Positions 4,202-61,746 of a DNA stretch of 64,000 bases are shown piece after piece. Every line of letters starts with the position of its first letter. The stretch's first letter is position 1. Position numbers and translations under genes: made by a program. The notes beneath the pieces are model-generated. The model had not been told where the DNA came from. It was given only the letters and a program-made list of their open reading frames with translations, and ran no database searches. The DNA comes from Ulvibacter litoralis (GTDB lineage Bacteria; Bacteroidota; Bacteroidia; Flavobacteriales; Flavobacteriaceae), in NCBI RefSeq assembly GCF_900102055.1, contig NZ_FNBA01000005.1, positions 62,001 through 126,000 on the forward strand, in the 5' to 3' direction.

Positions 4202-6301
4202 ATGCTAATTCTGAAAAACCACATCGTGATCGCTCGTACTTCTAAACTTTCATTGTTTCTTCTTGTCTTTTTAAGCGTGATACATCTTGGAAATGCCCAA
4301 CAGACAGCGCTAGTAGATTTTTTGAAGGTCAATACTCAAATAACACCAAATGCTTCGGAAAGTTCCGTAAAGGGATCAGCTTCGTACACATTTAGAATCC
4401 TTCAGGATACAGATTCAATTTACCTAGATGCTGTAAAAATGAAAGTAACTAACGTCGCATTAGATGGTATAAAACTAAAAGTGACCGACGATAAAATATG
4501 GTTGAAGCATCCGTTTAAAGCGGGTAAAGAATACACCACACTTTTTTCTTTTGAAGCCACCCCCAAACAAACACTTTATTTTACCGGAAATCAAATTTGG
4601 ACTCAAGGACAAGGGAAATACACTTCACATTGGTTGCCGAGTATTGATGATGTAAATGATAAAATGGAATTTGACATCACCATTGTTGCAGCTCCATCCA
4701 AAACAGTAATTGCTAACGGTAAATTGCTTTTTGTGACGAAAAAAGAAACTAGCAATCAATGGCATTGGGATATGGAGCGTCCGATGGCGAGTTACTTAGT
4801 GGCATTTGCCATTGGCGATTTTGAAAAGCAAGAAATAACGTCAAATTCCGGAATTCCGATAGAGTTGTATTACGAGCCTAAAGATTCCTTGAAAGTAGAG
4901 CCTACCTATCGTTATACAAAACAGATTTTCGACTTTTTAGAAGCTGAAATAGGTGTTCCGTATCCGTGGCAAAATTACAAACAAGTACCTGTGCGTGATT
5001 TTTTATACGCGGGAATGGAAAATACGACCGCTACTTTTTTTTCTGAAGCGTTTGTAAATGATTCTATTGGATTTACAGATCGTAACTATGTAAATGTAAA
5101 TGCGCATGAGTTGGCGCATCAATGGTTTGGAAACTTAGTTACTGAAACTGAAAGTATGCACCATTGGTTACAAGAAGGCTTTGCAACGTATTATGCGTTG
5201 TTGGCTGAAAGAGAAGTATTCGGAGACGATTATTATTACTGGAAACTATACCAATCGGCAGAGCAACTAAAAGCACTTAGTGATGAAGGGAAAGGAGAAT
5301 CACTGTTAAATCCGAAAGCAAGTTCATTAACCTTTTATGAAAAAGGAGCTTGGGCATTGCATATTTTAAAGGAACAAATAGGAGAGGAGGCTTTCAATAA
5401 GGCGATTAAAAATTACTTGGAAAAATATCGTTTTAAAAATGTGACCACTCCAAATTTTTTAGCAGAAGTGAAAGCAGTGTCGAGACAAAATATAGAACAA
5501 TTTGAAATTGACTGGCTGCAACAAACAGCGTTTAAAGCTGAACAAGCCTATCAATCACTTCGGAAGTCTCTATTTATTACGAACTATTTTAAACTTGCCG
5601 CCTTAAAAGGAACTCCTTTTGAAGATAAACTCCTTCAGTTGGATGAGGCGCTTACGTTTCCGAATGATTATATAGGGCAAGAAGCCATTTATCAATTGAT
5701 AGATGAACCTATTTCTGAAACCCTTCCGTATTACAAAAAAGGCTTCGAGAGTAACAATGTGTATGTGCGTCAAACCATAGCGTTGACCTCTGAGAACTTT
5801 CCGAAGCAATTGCAAAAAGAATACGAATCGTTACTGAAAGATGACTCATACGTGACGAAAGAAGCGGCTTTATACGGACTTTGGACTAATTTTCCAGAGA
5901 ACAGAAAAGAATATTTAGACGCTACGGAAGGGGTTATTGGTTTTCAAAATAAAAACATACGACAGTTGTGGTTGGTGCTTGCCTTGGTGGATGCTAATTA
6001 CAAGCCAGAACAGTCTAACGAATTTTTAACTGAATTAAAAAATTATACCTCTGATGACTATAGTTTTGAGGTGCGTGAAGTCGCATTTGGCTACATTCAA
6101 GAGCTTCGTTTGTGGGATGAGGCTACATTGCATACTCTTGTAAACGCAGCAACACATCATTCGTGGCGTTTCAGAAAATTCGCAAGAAGTGTGTTTGATT
6201 CGGTAGTAGAAAATGAAACATATCAATCTCTTATTTTGAAACAAATCGACTCGTTTTCAGAAAAGGAAAAGAACTATATTCAAACAAAATTGAAAGAGTA
6301 A
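4202..6301 (+). CDS. M1 family metallo-aminopeptidase, exported
   Basis: A zinc aminopeptidase that removes N-terminal residues from peptides. The zinc site is complete: H302-E303-L-A-H306 with the third ligand E325 in WLQEGFA, and the exopeptidase motif is the variant AGMENT near residue 271. A signal peptide (about residues 14-33, ending GNAQ) points to the periplasm or outside. At 699 residues it is shorter than the 850-residue PepN type and matches the Bacteroidota M1 subgroup with a C-terminal helical repeat region. The ATG at 4202 directly follows a terminator; a GTG at 4226 (then IARTSKLSLFLLVFL) is a credible alternative start. Its stop overlaps the next ATG by one base (TAATG). Confidence 0.93.
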   Translation: MLILKNHIVIARTSKLSLFLLVFLSVIHLGNAQQTALVDFLKVNTQITPNASESSVKGSASYTFRILQDTDSIYLDAVKMKVTNVALDGIKLKVTDDKIWLKHPFKAGKEYTTLFSFEATPKQTLYFTGNQIWTQGQGKYTSHWLPSIDDVNDKMEFDITIVAAPSKTVIANGKLLFVTKKETSNQWHWDMERPMASYLVAFAIGDFEKQEITSNSGIPIELYYEPKDSLKVEPTYRYTKQIFDFLEAEIGVPYPWQNYKQVPVRDFLYAGMENTTATFFSEAFVNDSIGFTDRNYVNVNAHELAHQWFGNLVTETESMHHWLQEGFATYYALLAEREVFGDDYYYWKLYQSAEQLKALSDEGKGESLLNPKASSLTFYEKGAWALHILKEQIGEEAFNKAIKNYLEKYRFKNVTTPNFLAEVKAVSRQNIEQFEIDWLQQTAFKAEQAYQSLRKSLFITNYFKLAALKGTPFEDKLLQLDEALTFPNDYIGQEAIYQLIDEPISETLPYYKKGFESNNVYVRQTIALTSENFPKQLQKEYESLLKDDSYVTKEAALYGLWTNFPENRKEYLDATEGVIGFQNKNIRQLWLVLALVDANYKPEQSNEFLTELKNYTSDDYSFEVREVAFGYIQELRLWDEATLHTLVNAATHHSWRFRKFARSVFDSVVENETYQSLILKQIDSFSEKEKNYIQTKLKE

Positions 6302-7215
6302 TGAGAGCATTAGTGATTTCAGGTGGTGGGAGTAAAGGAGCCTTCGCAGGGGGTGTGGCGCAGTATTTAATGGATGAGCAGAACCATACATACGACCTAT
6401 TTGTGGGGACATCGACAGGGAGTTTGTTGATTTCACATTTGGCACTGAACAAGGTTGAAAAAATTAAGGAAATCTATACTTCCGTAAATCAAAATAGTAT
6501 TTTTAGTATTCGTCCGTTTCGCGTTAAGAAAACAAAATACGGGGGAAAAGAGATTGGAATTGACCATATGGCGGTACTTCGTAATTTTTTACGCGGAAGT
6601 AAAACCTTTGGTGAGAGTCATAATTTGCGAAAGCTTATAAAGAATGTATTTACAGAACTTGAATTTAATCAATTAAAAGCTTCGGAAAAAGAGGTGGTGG
6701 TTACGGTGTCTAACCTGTCTTTAAATCAGGTAGAGTATAAGAGTATCAATGATTTTAGCTATGATGATTTCTGCGATTGGATTTGGATTTCGTGTAATTA
6801 TGTTCCTTTTATGAGTTTGGTAACCAAAAATAATTGCGAGTATGCAGATGGTGGTTTTGGAAGCATGGTACCTATTGAAGAAGCTATAAAGAGAGGGGCT
6901 ACCACGGTAGATGTAATTGTATTAGAAACTGAAGTAGCGTATTATAATAAATTGCCTTCGCGCAATGTATTTTCTTTATTGACCAATTTGCATGAATTTA
7001 TGTTGGATCGAGTTGAAAAACATAACATTCGAATAGGGAAGTTTGTTGCTGTAAATAACGATGCAATTATAAACCTATACTACACACCAACGGTACTCAC
7101 AACAAATTCATTAGTTTTTGATAAAAAATTAATGTTGAAGTGGTGGGAAAGTGGTTTTAACTATGCTAAAGAGAAAAATATGGAGGTCAATGAGATAAAG
7201 GGCGAAACGACTTAA
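6301..7215 (+). CDS. Patatin-like phospholipase family protein
   Basis: A cytosolic-looking serine lipid acyl hydrolase of 304 residues. The oxyanion-hole motif GGGSKGAFAGG spans residues 8-18, the nucleophile elbow is G36-T-S38-T-G40, and the catalytic Asp is in D183-G-G185, giving a complete Ser-Asp dyad. No signal peptide is visible. The substrate (phospholipid or other acyl ester) cannot be read from the sequence. Its ATG overlaps the stop of the M1 peptidase, so the two are very likely co-transcribed and translationally coupled. At the 3' end it runs tail-to-tail into the opposite-strand gene with the stop codons overlapping (7212-7215), leaving no room for a separate terminator. Confidence 0.92.
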   Translation: MRALVISGGGSKGAFAGGVAQYLMDEQNHTYDLFVGTSTGSLLISHLALNKVEKIKEIYTSVNQNSIFSIRPFRVKKTKYGGKEIGIDHMAVLRNFLRGSKTFGESHNLRKLIKNVFTELEFNQLKASEKEVVVTVSNLSLNQVEYKSINDFSYDDFCDWIWISCNYVPFMSLVTKNNCEYADGGFGSMVPIEEAIKRGATTVDVIVLETEVAYYNKLPSRNVFSLLTNLHEFMLDRVEKHNIRIGKFVAVNNDAIINLYYTPTVLTTNSLVFDKKLMLKWWESGFNYAKEKNMEVNEIKGETT

Positions 7216-7736
7216 AACATCTCACTTACTTCTTTTCGAACGTATACCAATGCTTTTTGAGAGGGTGTTACTTCTTCCATAAAATTACGCAATAACCATT
7301 CGCGCATGGCATCGGCATCTTGCTCTTTTTCGTGCATGGCACCTTGTCTAATGATATGGATAGTTGCATTTTTAGCAGCATTTACAAGATTCCAACACTC
7401 TTGTGATACATAGATTTGTTGTGAAAGGTTATGGTCAAATTCTTGTTCTATATTCCGAATTAATAATTCTTCATATTTTGAAACTTCATCTGAGAAAGGC
7501 TTTACACGAATCAATAATTTATTCGGATCCATGCGTTCCAAAAACAAGGTAATGCGTTCGTACGCTTGTAGGCGCATCGGCATTAGCTTGTTTTGTGCTT
7601 CTTTTTGAATTAAGTAGCGTCTTCTTCCTTCTTCATTTGCAGTGTGTCCTTTAAAAAAGAAATAGGAAACCAAACCAACAACAATGGCAGGTAATAGGTA
7701 AGCAAAATAGCTAATGATTTGAGTTGTTTCTTCCAT
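7212..7736 (-). CDS. Small membrane-anchored protein of unknown function
   Basis: 174 residues with one N-terminal transmembrane helix (about residues 8-28, ISYFAYLLPAIVVGLVSYFFF) followed by a soluble, charged alpha-helical region. The family is conserved in flavobacteria and I believe it is catalogued as a domain of unknown function (possibly DUF7935), but I cannot verify that. No catalytic motif is visible. The stop overlaps the stop of the patatin-like gene by four bases on the opposite strand. It lies downstream of the FMN glutamate-synthase-like gene on the same strand with a 92-base gap, so co-transcription is possible. Confidence 0.75.
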   Translation of the reverse strand: MEETTQIISYFAYLLPAIVVGLVSYFFFKGHTANEEGRRRYLIQKEAQNKLMPMRLQAYERITLFLERMDPNKLLIRVKPFSDEVSKYEELLIRNIEQEFDHNLSQQIYVSQECWNLVNAAKNATIHIIRQGAMHEKEQDADAMREWLLRNFMEEVTPSQKALVYVRKEVSEMF

Positions 7737-7828
7737 AGAAAATAATATTGGGTCACAAACGTACCAAAATTTAGGGTGTTTACAAACAAACGTTCACTTT
7801 ATCGAACTAGTATTTTAAACTTGTTTTT

Positions 7829-9373
7829 TTAGTTTTTTCCTCCTAAATACGGACATTCCTGTAACGATTTCATCCCGTTAAAAGGAACCTCCGTTTTATG
7901 ATACATATAGGTTTTGTCTAATTCTTTTGAAAGATTTTGGTCGTCTACATTAATATCTACATCCGACATTTTAAATTGACAAGGATGCTCGTATCCTGCC
8001 GCATGTGTAATTTCTATAAGTTCTTTTCTGAAGGTTTTAAAATACTGCGCCAAACGATCACTTTTTAAAGGAATATCGATTCCATTTTGAAGCCATTTAC
8101 TTTGTGTGGCAATCCCACTAGGACATCGATTGGTATGGCAAATTTGTGCTTGAATACAACCAATACTCATCATTGCTTCTCTTGCAACATTGATACAATC
8201 GGCACCCATTGCAAATGCCATTGCCGCTTTTGCAGGGAAACCTAGCTTACCGCTTCCTATAAAGACAATACGTTCTGTAAGTCCTTTCTTTTTAAACATT
8301 CGGTACAGGTCACTAAAACCATATACCCAAGGCAACGATACGTGATCTGCAAAACTCGGTGGAGCAGCTCCTGTTCCTCCTTCACCGCCATCAACAGTGA
8401 TAAAATCGGGACCTTTCCCTGTGGCAATCATAATATCTGCCAATTCTTCCCATTGTTCTAATTTTCCGATAGCCGCTTTAATACCTACGGGCAATCCAGT
8501 TTTCTCAGCAATGTCTTCAATAAAATCGATAAGTTCTGGGATGTTCGAGAATGCTTTGTGATTTGGTGGAGAAAGGACATCTTTACCAATTTCAACGTGT
8601 CTAACTCGCGCTATTTCCGCAGTAATTTTAGCGCCTGGCAAAACACCACCTTTTCCTGGTTTTGCTCCTTGCGATAATTTTACTTCAATGGCTTTTACAA
8701 AAGGATTTTCTTCAACAAGTTGTACTAGTTTATCCATTGAAAAACCACCATCACCATCTCGAACACCAAAATATCCTGTTCCGAAGTGAAAAATCACATC
8801 ACCCCCATGACTGTGGTAAGGCGATAATCCACCTTCACCTGTATTGTGATATGCTCCGGCTATTTTAACACCTTTATTCAACGATTCTACTGCCTTCGCA
8901 GATAACGAACCAAAACTCATGGCCGATACATTAATGATAGATCCTGGACGATAGGGTTTCCGTCTTTTATTGTATTCGCCCATCACCTTAGCACATGGTA
9001 AAAAAGTTTTGTCTAGGCTGTTGGGATGATTCTTGTCAATTTCATACGGAAGCATCGCGTTATTAATAAAGATATGTTGGTGTGCGTAGATATCTCTATC
9101 GGTACCAAAACCTTCGTAGTTGTTTTCTTTTTTTGCTGAAGCATAAATCCAACCACGTTCAATACGATTAAACGGAAGCTCTTCTCTGTTATTCGCTACA
9201 AAATACTGACGCATTTCAGGACCAATACTTTCAAGCATATAGCGAATGTGTCCTACCAACGGAAAGTTATGGCTTATGGTGTGTTTTTTGTTGAAAAATA
9301 TATCTCTAATAGCAACGAGGGCAAGTACTATAAGAATCCAAGCCCACCAAGGAATTGCTCGTAAAAAATCCAT
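7829..9373 (-). CDS. FMN-binding glutamate synthase-like protein, membrane-anchored
   Basis: The 514-residue protein holds the FMN/2-oxoglutarate-binding barrel of glutamate synthase (residues about 90-470), with GEGGLSPYHSHGGD, IEVKLSQGAKPGKGG and VDGGEGGTGAAPP. Three cysteines spaced C-x5-C-x4-C (about residues 406-417, in CIQAQICHTNRC) match the [3Fe-4S] ligands of GOGAT. It lacks the glutaminase domain, so it is not a complete glutamate synthase. An N-terminal transmembrane helix (IPWWAWILIVLALVAI, residues 7-22) suggests membrane attachment. The family is widespread in bacteria and its physiological reaction is not settled. It is a single gene between the small membrane protein and the M20D hydrolase. 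Confidence 0.88.
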   Translation of the reverse strand: MDFLRAIPWWAWILIVLALVAIRDIFFNKKHTISHNFPLVGHIRYMLESIGPEMRQYFVANNREELPFNRIERGWIYASAKKENNYEGFGTDRDIYAHQHIFINNAMLPYEIDKNHPNSLDKTFLPCAKVMGEYNKRRKPYRPGSIINVSAMSFGSLSAKAVESLNKGVKIAGAYHNTGEGGLSPYHSHGGDVIFHFGTGYFGVRDGDGGFSMDKLVQLVEENPFVKAIEVKLSQGAKPGKGGVLPGAKITAEIARVRHVEIGKDVLSPPNHKAFSNIPELIDFIEDIAEKTGLPVGIKAAIGKLEQWEELADIMIATGKGPDFITVDGGEGGTGAAPPSFADHVSLPWVYGFSDLYRMFKKKGLTERIVFIGSGKLGFPAKAAMAFAMGADCINVAREAMMSIGCIQAQICHTNRCPSGIATQSKWLQNGIDIPLKSDRLAQYFKTFRKELIEITHAAGYEHPCQFKMSDVDINVDDQNLSKELDKTYMYHKTEVPFNGMKSLQECPYLGGKN

Positions 9374-54034: not shown

Positions 54035-54066
54035 ATTGCGTAACAGTTATAATTGAATTATATTTG
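54035..54066 (+). promoter_or_regulatory. Promoter of tRNA-His
   Basis: ATTG at 54035-54038 and TATATTTG at 54059-54066 with 20 bases between form the best full match to the Bacteroidota promoter in this window. The -7 box lies 27 bases before the tRNA. Confidence 0.7.
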
Positions 54067-54093
54067 CATCCGCTTTCAGAGCGAAATTAAAAC

Positions 54094-54168
54094 GGTGGTT
54101 GTAGCTCAGTTGGTTAGAGCATCGGTTTGTGGTACCGAGGGTCGCCGGTTCGAGCCCGGTCTTCCACC
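54094..54168 (+). tRNA. tRNA-His (anticodon GTG)
   Basis: A complete cloverleaf can be drawn with G-1 at 54094, D-arm stem GCTC/GAGC, anticodon stem TCGGT/ACCGA with anticodon GTG at 54129-54131, and T-arm GCCGG/CCGGT with TTCGAGC loop. G-1 faces C73 at 54168, the His-specific feature. The acceptor stem GTGGTTG/CTTCCAC has two neighbouring T-T oppositions at positions 5-68 and 6-67, which is odd. The genome continues CA after C73, so the CCA end is not fully encoded. Confidence 0.93.
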
Positions 54169-54175
54169 CAGAAGT

Positions 54176-54207
54176 AAAAAGTCTTTCAGAAATGAAAGAC
54201 TTTTTTT
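54176..54207 (+). terminator. Terminator of tRNA-His
   Basis: AAAAAGTCTTTC pairs with GAAAGACTTTTT across a six-base loop, followed by T residues, eight bases after the tRNA. Confidence 0.88.
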
Positions 54208-54222
54208 GTGTATAGAAGTATC

Positions 54223-54260
54223 AAAAAAAAGCCTCGTAGTAAACAAACTACGAGGCTTTT
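54223..54260 (-). terminator. Terminator of the M28 lipoprotein gene
   Basis: GCCTCGTAGT and ACTACGAGGC form a perfect 10-bp stem; eight A residues on its left become the T run on the minus strand. It lies 23 bases past the stop at 54283. Confidence 0.88.
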
Positions 54261-54282
54261 GTATGTGTAAGTATTTTATTAG

Positions 54283-55302
54283 TTACTTTTTATCTGCTGT
54301 AATTCTACCTTCTCTATTGGCAATTTCCCAAGCCGTTTGAAAAATAAGTTGTGTGCGTTTTGCCATTAATTCGTATTCGATTTTGTCTGGCGTGTCGGTC
54401 ATTTTGTGATAATCTTCATGCACTCCATTAAAATAAAAAATCACAGGAACATTATTTTTTGCGAAGTTGTAGTGATCACTTCTGTAGTAAAAACGATTTG
54501 GATCGTTCTCATCATTGAAAGTATAATCAAGTTCTAGGTTAACATATTCTTTATTTACCGCTTCTGAAACATCGTGAAGTTCCTGACTTAGCTTATCGCT
54601 TCCGATGAGGTAGATGTATTCAGGATTGTCTGCTTTATTAGGATCGATACGCCCAATCATGTCGGTATTTAAATTGACTACAGTATTTTCTAATGGAAAA
54701 ATTGGATTTTCAGTGTAATATTTAGAACCGTACAAACCAATTTCTTCTCCTGTTACGTGAAGAAATAGAATAGAACGTTTAGGTCCGTTTCCATCTTCTA
54801 CAGCTTTTTGAAAAGCTTCCGCCATTTCTAACATAGCCACAGTTCCGCTTCCGTCATCATCGGCACCATTAAAAATATTTCCTTGATCGTCGGTTCCAAC
54901 GTGATCCAAGTGAGCAGAAAGAATAACAATTTCTTCTGGTTTTTCAGAACCTTTAATAAAAGCGAGAACATTTTCAGAATCTAATTCAACATTTTTTCTT
55001 CCGAAGTATTCTTTTGGTACTTTTTGAAAATAGTTGTTTTCTTCTATTGGAGAGGGAATGTTATGGTCTTGGTAAAAATTCCGAAGGTATTCTACTGCTA
55101 ATTTTTGTCCTTTGGTTCCTGTCATACGTCCGCGCATTTCATCTCCAGCGTAAATATATAGGTGTTTTTTTAAATCGGAAGCAGTGATTGTATTTGCATA
55201 ATCAACACGAGTCATTGTTGATTTAGGGGTTTTGGTAACCGAATTTTGAGCAGAATTACAAGAAACTGACAAAACAGTTAGGAGTAGGAATAGAAATTTC
55301 AT
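54283..55302 (-). CDS. M28 family zinc exopeptidase, lipoprotein
   Basis: 339 residues with a lipobox (TVLSVSC, Cys near residue 15). The dinuclear zinc site is complete: LSAHLDHVGT near residue 130, NGADDDGSGTVAMLEMAEAF near 145, GEEIGLYGSKYY near 185 and NTDMIGR near 215, with a late His in DTPDK...YHKM. It is an aminopeptidase or carboxypeptidase acting in the periplasm or at the outer membrane. A small lipoprotein gene is six bases upstream on the same strand, so the pair forms an operon. Confidence 0.93.
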   Translation of the reverse strand: MKFLFLLLTVLSVSCNSAQNSVTKTPKSTMTRVDYANTITASDLKKHLYIYAGDEMRGRMTGTKGQKLAVEYLRNFYQDHNIPSPIEENNYFQKVPKEYFGRKNVELDSENVLAFIKGSEKPEEIVILSAHLDHVGTDDQGNIFNGADDDGSGTVAMLEMAEAFQKAVEDGNGPKRSILFLHVTGEEIGLYGSKYYTENPIFPLENTVVNLNTDMIGRIDPNKADNPEYIYLIGSDKLSQELHDVSEAVNKEYVNLELDYTFNDENDPNRFYYRSDHYNFAKNNVPVIFYFNGVHEDYHKMTDTPDKIEYELMAKRTQLIFQTAWEIANREGRITADKK

Positions 55303-60394: not shown

Positions 60395-60590
60395 AGTAAC
60401 GGAGAATAGAATGAAAAGATTAAATATATGTGTCTTGTAAAATTCGACTAATTTTTTCTTTTTATCGAGTGCATTTACTTTTTTTTTATGGAAGTCGAAC
60501 TATTTTTTTACGCTGAAAAAGGAATGGTATCAGCGCATTTTCAGAATAAATAAAGAAAATTTAAAAGTAACTTTTTAGTACCTTCGAAAT

Positions 60591-61373
60591 ATGAAAACAA
60601 CGCATAATATTAGAACCGTTGAGGTTGTTCAGTATATAAAACCTCTGCGCGAAGGGGGATCGCTTCCAGCTATTGTAAAAGCGGATGATGGATACGTATA
60701 TGTGCTGAAATTTAGAGGCGCCGGACAAGGGAAAAAAGCACTTATTGCTGAACTTTTAGGAGGTGAAATTGCACGAGCTATTGGTTTAAAAGTTCCTGAA
60801 TTGGTATTTATGAATCTAGACGATTCGTTTAGTAAGACCGAACCCGATGAAGAGATTCAGGACTTGTTGAAGTTTAGCGTTGGACTCAACCTAGGGTTAC
60901 ACTTTTTAACGAGCGCAATTACATTCGACCCTTTGGTTACTACAATCGATGGATTGTTGGCTTCAAAAGTTGTGTTGTTAGATAGCTTATTGAGTAATAT
61001 TGATCGTACCGCAAAAAATACGAATTTATTACAATGGAATAACGAACTGTGGATTATCGATAATGGAGCGAGTTTTTATTTTCATCACAATTGGGAAACG
61101 TGGAGAAATCATTTAACACGTACTTTTCCTTTGATAAAAGACCATGTACTGCTTGCACAAGCAACTCATTTACCAGAAGCTTCTGCACAAATAAAAGCAC
61201 TATTAACAAAAGAGAAGCTAACTGAGATTGTAGCATTAATTCCTAATGATTGGTTGTTGAACGAGTCAGATACGATGTCTCCAAACGAAATTAGAGCGGC
61301 GTATATGGAGTATTTAGAAGCGAAGCTGGCGATGATTGATTCACTTGTTAAAGAAGCTGAGGATGCACGATAG
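60591..61373 (+). CDS. HipA-like kinase-fold protein
   Basis: 260 residues, much shorter than the 440 of HipA toxin. The N-lobe has VYVLKFRGAGQGKKALIAELLGGEIARAIGL, with a candidate ATP-site Lys in VLKF. The catalytic-loop equivalent is NIDRTAKNTNLL (D138, N143) and the metal-binding Asp is D157 in IIDNGASF, so a phosphotransferase site seems intact. The HipB antitoxin and the HipA N-terminal subdomain are missing, so it is not a normal hipBA module. It overlaps the DUF3037 gene by 11 bases. The substrate is unknown. A TACCTTCG near-match to the -7 box lies just before the start. Confidence 0.82.
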   Translation: MKTTHNIRTVEVVQYIKPLREGGSLPAIVKADDGYVYVLKFRGAGQGKKALIAELLGGEIARAIGLKVPELVFMNLDDSFSKTEPDEEIQDLLKFSVGLNLGLHFLTSAITFDPLVTTIDGLLASKVVLLDSLLSNIDRTAKNTNLLQWNNELWIIDNGASFYFHHNWETWRNHLTRTFPLIKDHVLLAQATHLPEASAQIKALLTKEKLTEIVALIPNDWLLNESDTMSPNEIRAAYMEYLEAKLAMIDSLVKEAEDAR

Positions 61374-61746
61374 AGTTACATTTGAATATGCGATTATTAG
61401 AGTGGTTCCGAAAGTAGAACGGGAAGAGTTTTTTAATGTGGGCGTGCTTCTTTTTTCAAAACGAAAGAAATTTCTGGGCATTAAATATAAAATAGATCAA
61501 ACCAAGTTAGCTGCTTTTTCAAAAGACTTAGATTGTAACATATTGAACGATAATTTAAAAGCGTGGGAGTCAATTTGTGCTGGAATGCCTTTAGGAGGCG
61601 CGATTGGAAGACTGGAACTATCAGACCGTTTTCGATGGTTGGCAGCATCTAGAAGTACAATAATACAAAGTTCTAAAACCCATCCAGGATTGTGTACAGA
61701 TCCTGCAAAAGAATTGGAAGAAATTTTTAATACCTATGTTTTGTAA
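61363..61746 (+). CDS. DUF3037 protein, partner of HipA-like kinase
   Basis: 127 residues. I take the ATG at 61363, which overlaps the last four codons of the kinase gene; a TTG nine codons upstream (61336) is possible but those residues are not conserved-looking. The beginning FEYAIIRVVPKVEREEFFNVGVLLFS and later RFRWLAASRSTIIQSSKTHPGLC are hallmarks of DUF3037, a family without known activity. The overlap and order suggest translational coupling and a protein pair. It ends at a bidirectional terminator. Confidence 0.85.
   Translation: MHDRVTFEYAIIRVVPKVEREEFFNVGVLLFSKRKKFLGIKYKIDQTKLAAFSKDLDCNILNDNLKAWESICAGMPLGGAIGRLELSDRFRWLAASRSTIIQSSKTHPGLCTDPAKELEEIFNTYVL

Follow-up and report, generated by a model that had tools for sequence, protein, structure and literature searches.

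Is the pair formed by a HipA-like kinase gene and an overlapping DUF3037 gene in Ulvibacter litoralis a toxin-antitoxin that defends against phages, or a settled regulator of the cell itself? The pair lies near the end of the window, by which we mean the whole stretch of 64,000 nucleotides that was analysed (contig NZ_FNBA01000005.1, positions 62,001 to 126,000 of the forward strand). The kinase/DUF3037 kit as such is not new: it has the PADLOC entry PDC-M66, and papers of 2025-26 describe it as DS-6/HipAD and as a part of Retron-Sda1. The window carries a short form of this kit, which is a branch separate from HipAD, and it is the contrast with HipAD that is new. HipAD-type pairs can receive a "defence" label from their domain content, a label that would be wrong for the short form if this is a settled cellular regulator; in that case a widespread Bacteroidota kinase, with at least 596 relatives on named genome contigs, has been overlooked.

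According to PMC12548924, the HipA-like kinase and DUF3037 protein of Retron-Sda1 defend without the retron parts or the reverse transcriptase; defence against phage Bas51 disappeared when the kinase was deleted, and deletion of DUF3037 was toxic. PMC13092281 describes DS-6, validated by DefensePredictor and renamed HipAD, in which DS-6B combines DUF3037 with DUF1829 and a catalytic mutant lost defence; AlphaFold3 predicts that DS-6A binds DS-6B and, somewhat less strongly, that they bind DNA. The view of an earlier, preliminary description of the locus that DUF3037 has no known activity is therefore outdated for these relatives, where it is reported as a neutralising partner. The record of the lambda-like coliphage PhiR5_1 annotates the pair as HipA toxin and HipD antitoxin, and in this Escherichia phage the two genes (L154, 4962-6535) stand directly after cI. 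The primary HipAD paper is reportedly that of Brenes and Laub (2025). A literature search found no published study of the short kinase/DUF3037 form, and the main text of a 2021 Hip-kinase phylogeny, in its available part, holds no word starting with DUF (PMC8262856).

In the window, the kinase gene occupies 60591-61373 of the forward strand and encodes a HipA-like Ser/Thr kinase of 260 aa. The DUF3037 gene follows on the same strand at 61363-61746 and encodes a short-form protein of 127 aa, which lacks the C-terminal domain. The ATG at 61363 is the aligned DUF3037 start, since M1 is identical in 9 of 9 and 38 of 38 aligned sequences, and for the same reason an upstream candidate, the TTG at 61336, was set aside. 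The element TACCTTCG (60579-60586, forward strand), which lies 4 bases ahead of the kinase ATG, resembles the Bacteroidota -7 box, whose consensus we take to be TAnnTTTG, and it might just serve as the kinase gene's own promoter, giving a near-leaderless mRNA. TAnnTTYG occurs within 80 nt upstream of 28 of the 76 short kinases against 153 of 797 other genes of the same loci, a weak test of enrichment because ORF starts were set mechanically. The flanking genes are on the opposite strand: upstream, a divergent nitronate monooxygenase-like gene and malate:quinone oxidoreductase; downstream, an unnamed convergent ORF, a protein with a GreA/GreB C-terminal domain and a glutamate-dehydrogenase-like ORF named by eye. 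The Pfam scan of these flanking ORFs found no HipB-like gene adjoining the kinase, in line with the preliminary description, and NCBIfam gave no match for the pair. Elsewhere in the window, a listed ORF at 54053-54340, which overlies the tRNA-His gene at 54095-54169, is probably spurious.

Across genomes the window kinase and DUF3037 behave as a real two-gene unit, as had been proposed from the one locus. In a phylum-wide sample of 395 genomes, DUF3037 was present in 87 and HipA_2 in 96; 84 had both, 3 DUF3037 only, 12 HipA_2 only and 296 neither (Fisher p 2e-68). Even some of the exceptions are partial, as two "HipA_2 only" genomes (G337, G388) have a long DUF3037-like neighbour according to our own profile (L143, L139), and one "DUF3037 only" genome (G252, L112) has a 46-aa kinase fragment at that place. 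Ten solo HipA_2 kinases (L140-L142, L145-L151) stand without a detected DUF3037, so a kinase of this family can exist without that partner. Of 60 relatives of the source genome, 14 carry both families and none carries only one, G052 being the one whose pair is broken; within this set the pair is present in 2 of the 4 genomes from the window's genus and in 9 of the 37 from its family. In each of the 76 short loci the kinase gene immediately precedes DUF3037 on the same strand, and in 74 the relative frame is the same. The 11-base overlap (61363-61373) between the end of the kinase gene and the beginning of DUF3037 that had been noted is borne out by the sequence and has its counterpart in 74 of the 76 short pairs, where overlaps are mostly of 23, 11 or 14 bases. 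Of 80 named loci kept from the scan, 78 have a short DUF3037 overlapping downstream of the kinase, and in the other two (L185, L194) the kinase is at or near a contig end. The two families are thus found mostly together and not apart; a fusion of the two, for which the preliminary description had suggested a search, appeared in none of the 115 entries scanned (the window plus L039-L152).

The window kinase matches Pfam HipA_2 (PF20613) over residues 13-239 of its 260 (E 1.7e-20, 73.7 bits, cut-off 27). Residues K40, D131, N136, D138, R139, N143, N145 and D157 do not vary in any of the 76 short-class kinases or the 80 named loci, and so the earlier placing of D138, N143 and D157 at the expected catalytic and metal positions, which we equate with the catalytic positions of HipA, holds in all of these. 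S24, in the glycine-rich stretch, is also invariant in the short class, and the position of E54 is E or D; this residue alignment left out the nine long loci whose kinase is absent or shorter than 225 aa. Sequence comparison gave no convincing solved relative. An AlphaFold2 model of the kinase (mean pLDDT 85.4) has as its closest solved fold, among those listed, the Helicobacter kinase CtkA (3akk; Z 15.5, rmsd 3.3 over 211 residues, 15% identity), for which we know of no described DUF3037 partner. It is followed by PI4KII-alpha, CotH, Fam20, HipT (8ezs; Z 11.2, rmsd 3.9 over 190 residues) and Shewanella HipA (4pu3; Z 10.2, rmsd 3.8 over 186 residues). The model aligns to three Shewanella HipA entries only from their residues 69, 119 and 144, so the window kinase lacks the N-terminal part of HipA, as first described.

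How does the pair compare with other Hip systems? HipBA shares the kinase fold and the catalytic positions, but it has an adjoining HipB and the N-terminal HipA part, and the window pair has neither. HipBST, like the window, has a core kinase without the N-terminal HipA part and a separate small controlling protein. However, HipBST consists of three genes, including HipB and the partner HipS, in a gene order unlike that of the window pair, whose partner is DUF3037 by sequence and which has no adjoining HipB. HipS-like folds were absent from the fold-match lists of the DUF3037 model, lists that gave it no clear solved relative of any kind.

The closest comparison is with HipAD/DS-6 (PDC-M66), which also has a HipA_2-type kinase followed by DUF3037 on the same strand, overlapping or abutting, with conserved catalytic residues. 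The HipAD partner, however, is long (274-372 aa among the loci here, 275 aa in phage HipD), whereas that of the window has 127 aa. Loci were classed by this length: short, with a DUF3037 ORF below 200 aa (76 loci, window included), and long, with 274-372 aa (28 loci). The window protein matches Pfam PF11236 over the whole profile (1-118 of 118; E 2.6e-45, 153.9 bits, cut-off 22.6). The PADLOC partner model PDC-M66B is matched at 1-279 by one long partner and at 6-271 by phage HipD, and by the window partner only at 3-72 of 281 positions (E 2e-10); the window DUF3037 lacks the C-terminal half of this 281-aa model. The Retron-Sda1 DUF3037 has a C-terminal region like a DNA-binding protein of type III-A1 retrons, which the window protein does not have. 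The kinases divide in the same way. In the tree, 77 short kinases, Streptomyces included, form one group with support 0.56, which rises to 0.94 when two solo kinases are added and to 0.97 with nine of the ten; all 20 long-form kinases fall outside, which puts HipAD-type and short-form kinases on separate branches (support 0.97).

The long class is also less regular. A kinase or a piece of one adjoins the partner in 24 of the 28 long loci, is not detected in 3 and is only distant in 1; the overlap is of 4 bases in 16. No kinase of the 76 short loci is shorter than 252 aa, but in nine long loci (L107, L112, L114, L115, L116, L120, L124, L126, L152) the kinase is absent or below 225 aa beside a full-length partner, although L116 is close to a contig end where its kinase may be cut off. 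Frequent breakage of the kinase with retention of the partner is as expected for a toxin, and this pattern is unseen in the short form (0 of 76 loci). The source genome has, on another contig, a second HipA_2 kinase, on the reverse strand at 7644-8471 of locus L138 (G000 contig C27, 38500-54500), which overlaps by 4 bases a long (286 aa), divergent, DUF3037-like partner at 6787-7647 on the same strand; Pfam names no family for this partner, and weak long members such as L138 are less certain, our own DUF3037 profile having been trained on these loci. The broken pair of G052 (L137, contig C170, about 5945-6442) was left out of the class counts: a kinase-like reading up to DHGA runs into the DUF3037 start region, both genes are decayed, and the whole resembles a deletion remnant of a short pair. 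On plasmid p1 of Leptolyngbya boryana (L156, 4628-5411), a truncated kinase stands with an intact short DUF3037 and IS transposase genes nearby.

How has the short pair been passed on? Distances between kinases correlate with those between DUF3037 proteins (Mantel rho 0.86, 74 of 75 genomes, G438 having been dropped for a split rpoB), and both correlate with rpoB at 0.62, an overall value that leaves room for transfer between distant groups. Within groups the agreement with rpoB is closer: 0.94 for the kinase and 0.93 for DUF3037 in the 22 genomes of genus g54 (0 of 199 permutations), 0.81 and 0.77 in 31 genomes of the window's family f1 (Flavobacteriaceae, from identity with named loci), 0.79 and 0.85 in 8 genomes of f5, and 0.84 and 0.87 in 10 of f17. 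The short pair appears to have been kept largely through vertical descent within several families. Genus g54 would be Flavobacterium, as the closest named kinase for all 22 of its genomes is that of Flavobacterium muglaense (L214), although the same kinase is also closest for some genomes outside g54's family. Among the genomes listed, DUF3037 is present in single copy in 22 of 23 from g54 and 8 of 8 from f5, counts that take the negatives listed for these two groups, which were ordered by kinship, as complete. With the 2 of 4 and 9 of 37 given above, the short pair is close to core in some genera but patchy elsewhere. Legionella HipBST is likewise conserved throughout its genus, according to PMC10653801. 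Selection on the pair is strong: median dN/dS over 40 matched g54 pairs is 0.027 for the kinase, 0.064 for DUF3037 and 0.022 for rpoB, and another cut gives 0.028 (52 pairs), 0.10 (71) and 0.041 (218), all rough figures because the pair is almost saturated at synonymous positions. Over all 231 g54 pairs, dN is 4.5 times that of rpoB for the kinase and 7.2 times for DUF3037.

Could the pair nevertheless be an anti-phage toxin-antitoxin of the HipAD type, in which DUF3037 senses infection or loses its control upon it and the kinase then aborts the infection, and which is sedentary only by chance? It has the same two domains in the same order, with a match of the kinase to PDC-M66A at E 2.9e-26; its relatives are reported to defend against phages (PMC12548924, PMC13092281); and its presence in 9 of 37 genomes of the window's family is patchy. 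The genomic surroundings give evidence both ways. In the 15 of 76 short loci that were scanned, neighbours belong mostly to metabolic Pfam families, whereas HipAD has defence-gene neighbours. PADLOC matches at E up to 1e-15 amounted to 33 families among 117 neighbours of the 15 short loci (mad3 in 3 members, 24 other listed families in 1 each), against 192 families among 117 neighbours of 17 long loci, where the top matches, in 4-5 members, were type I methyltransferase and specificity subunits, so that type I restriction-modification genes adjoin long-form pairs. A closer look at 10 neighbour proteins gave partial defence matches beside 3 of the 15 short loci: two neighbours at L082 partly match the defence helicase models MkoA and DpdF, and neighbours at L053 and L129 partly match mad3. 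No fixed gene neighbourhood was found for the pair, synteny being limited to clades of at most 14 loci.

No relative of the short kinase or short DUF3037 queries appeared among viral contigs, which the tool states to number 2.9 million, against 34 of phage HipA. This contrast of short and long is not a clean one because a Bacteroidota long-form kinase, used as a further control, also gave none, and the absence is no proof since such scans rely on short peptide patterns. Apparent "plasmid" copies in Parabacteroides and Bacteroides (L153, L345) were considered as signs of mobility and rejected: metabolic genes lie beside the pair, ribD, pyrE and argH in one record and polysaccharide-use genes in the other, and the records are probably pieces of chromosome. 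With rpoB-like descent and strong purifying selection added to this, the defence reading appears unlikely, though it keeps real weight. If it were correct, a phage-defence toxin-antitoxin would have been kept by descent in nearly all sampled members of one genus. The link to toxin-antitoxins and defence raised in the preliminary description thus stands for the relatives DS-6/HipAD and Retron-Sda1, but a place of this copy in a defence island finds no support in the loci and viral contigs scanned. Together, near-core presence in some genera, rpoB-like descent, constraint and a setting mostly outside defence islands argue for a cellular role no less strongly than for phage defence.

The reading that we prefer, with a probability of about one in two, is that the window pair is a sedentary kinase-inhibitor pair on a branch apart from HipAD. 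Kinase and dedicated inhibitor or regulator would be produced together from the overlapping reading frames, so that the DUF3037 partner is present alongside the kinase. By analogy with the relatives, DUF3037 would bind the HipA-like kinase and keep it in check; upon some signal this hold would be lost, and the kinase would phosphorylate a cell target and slow growth. Unlike HipAD, which may do so, the short pair is not expected to repress its own promoter, since the missing C-terminal half would leave no HipB-like or HipD-like self-repression. An inhibitor is suggested because loss of the partner is toxic in relatives and because the overlap of the frames is conserved. Results from the long form may not transfer to the short form, given that in BLAST the window kinase has 18-34% identity to long-form kinases, often over partial length, with no match at all to some.

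What the inhibitor reading accounts for less well is the partner itself. R13, P16, R89, A95, S98, Q102, S104 and G109 are found in 76 of 76 short DUF3037 proteins and H107 in 75. Among 29 long-form proteins, in a weak alignment, E22 is kept in 27 and G27 in 29, but P16 in 22, S104 in 12 and Q102 in 8, and R89, S98, H107 and G109 are present in few. The Leptolyngbya short protein keeps the full invariant set and that of Streptomyces all but R13 and S104, the latter being Gly. In a model of the window protein (pLDDT 89.8), the motif's C-terminal residues fall at the end of helix 86-95, in the loop after it and on strands 101-103 and 107-111. Neither Foldseek (best E 0.41) nor VIA-align (best Z 3.2) listed a clear solved fold relative, which is no proof of a new fold. 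Judged from conservation, the invariant motif suggests a site beyond simple blocking of the kinase; such a set of polar residues seems more than a simple inhibitor would need and counts against an inhibitor-only reading.

A tentative alternative, to which we give less than even odds, is that the short pair has long served Bacteroidota as a housekeeping unit of phospho-signalling, inherited for the most part vertically and related to copies in Streptomyces and Leptolyngbya, and that HipAD is a derived or sister branch. R89, S98, Q102, H107 and G109, with R13 and S104 outside Streptomyces, could then form a functional site of DUF3037, a proposal that we hold with similar reserve. If this housekeeping reading is true, the HipAD branch would have lost the DUF3037 site and gained the C-terminal half.

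A further reading would make the pair a two-subunit housekeeping kinase of signalling or metabolism, with DUF3037 as a ligand-binding or catalytic subunit and not an antitoxin. The residues invariant in the short form and scarce in the long form agree with this, as do the motif kept in Leptolyngbya and, minus R13 and S104, in Streptomyces, and the presence of DUF3037 in 22 of the 23 listed g54 genomes. However, the alignment behind the long-form columns is weak, the DUF3037 model has no enzyme-like fold match (which does not exclude one), and the relatives act as toxin and antitoxin in PMC12548924, so that we regard this reading as improbable without being far-fetched. Could DUF3037 be the substrate of its kinase, with phosphorylation of S98 or S104 switching the pair? 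All 76 short proteins have Ser at both positions, and the long-form S104 column, in the same weak alignment, has S in 12, D in 10, T in 3 and E in 1 of 29. Yet the Streptomyces residue at S104 is Gly, the long-form S98 column is mostly N, P or D in that alignment, and a binding or structural role would give the same Ser pattern, which makes a substrate very improbable. That two unrelated genes stand side by side by chance can be dismissed in view of the co-occurrence (p 2e-68) and of adjacency in 76 of 76 short loci from many families.

A last observation concerns the family name. DUF3037, with IPR022542, has been applied in PMC6711988 to the eukaryotic Focadhesin/RST1 ARM-repeat protein, which is probably a different family whose name has been mixed up with this one.
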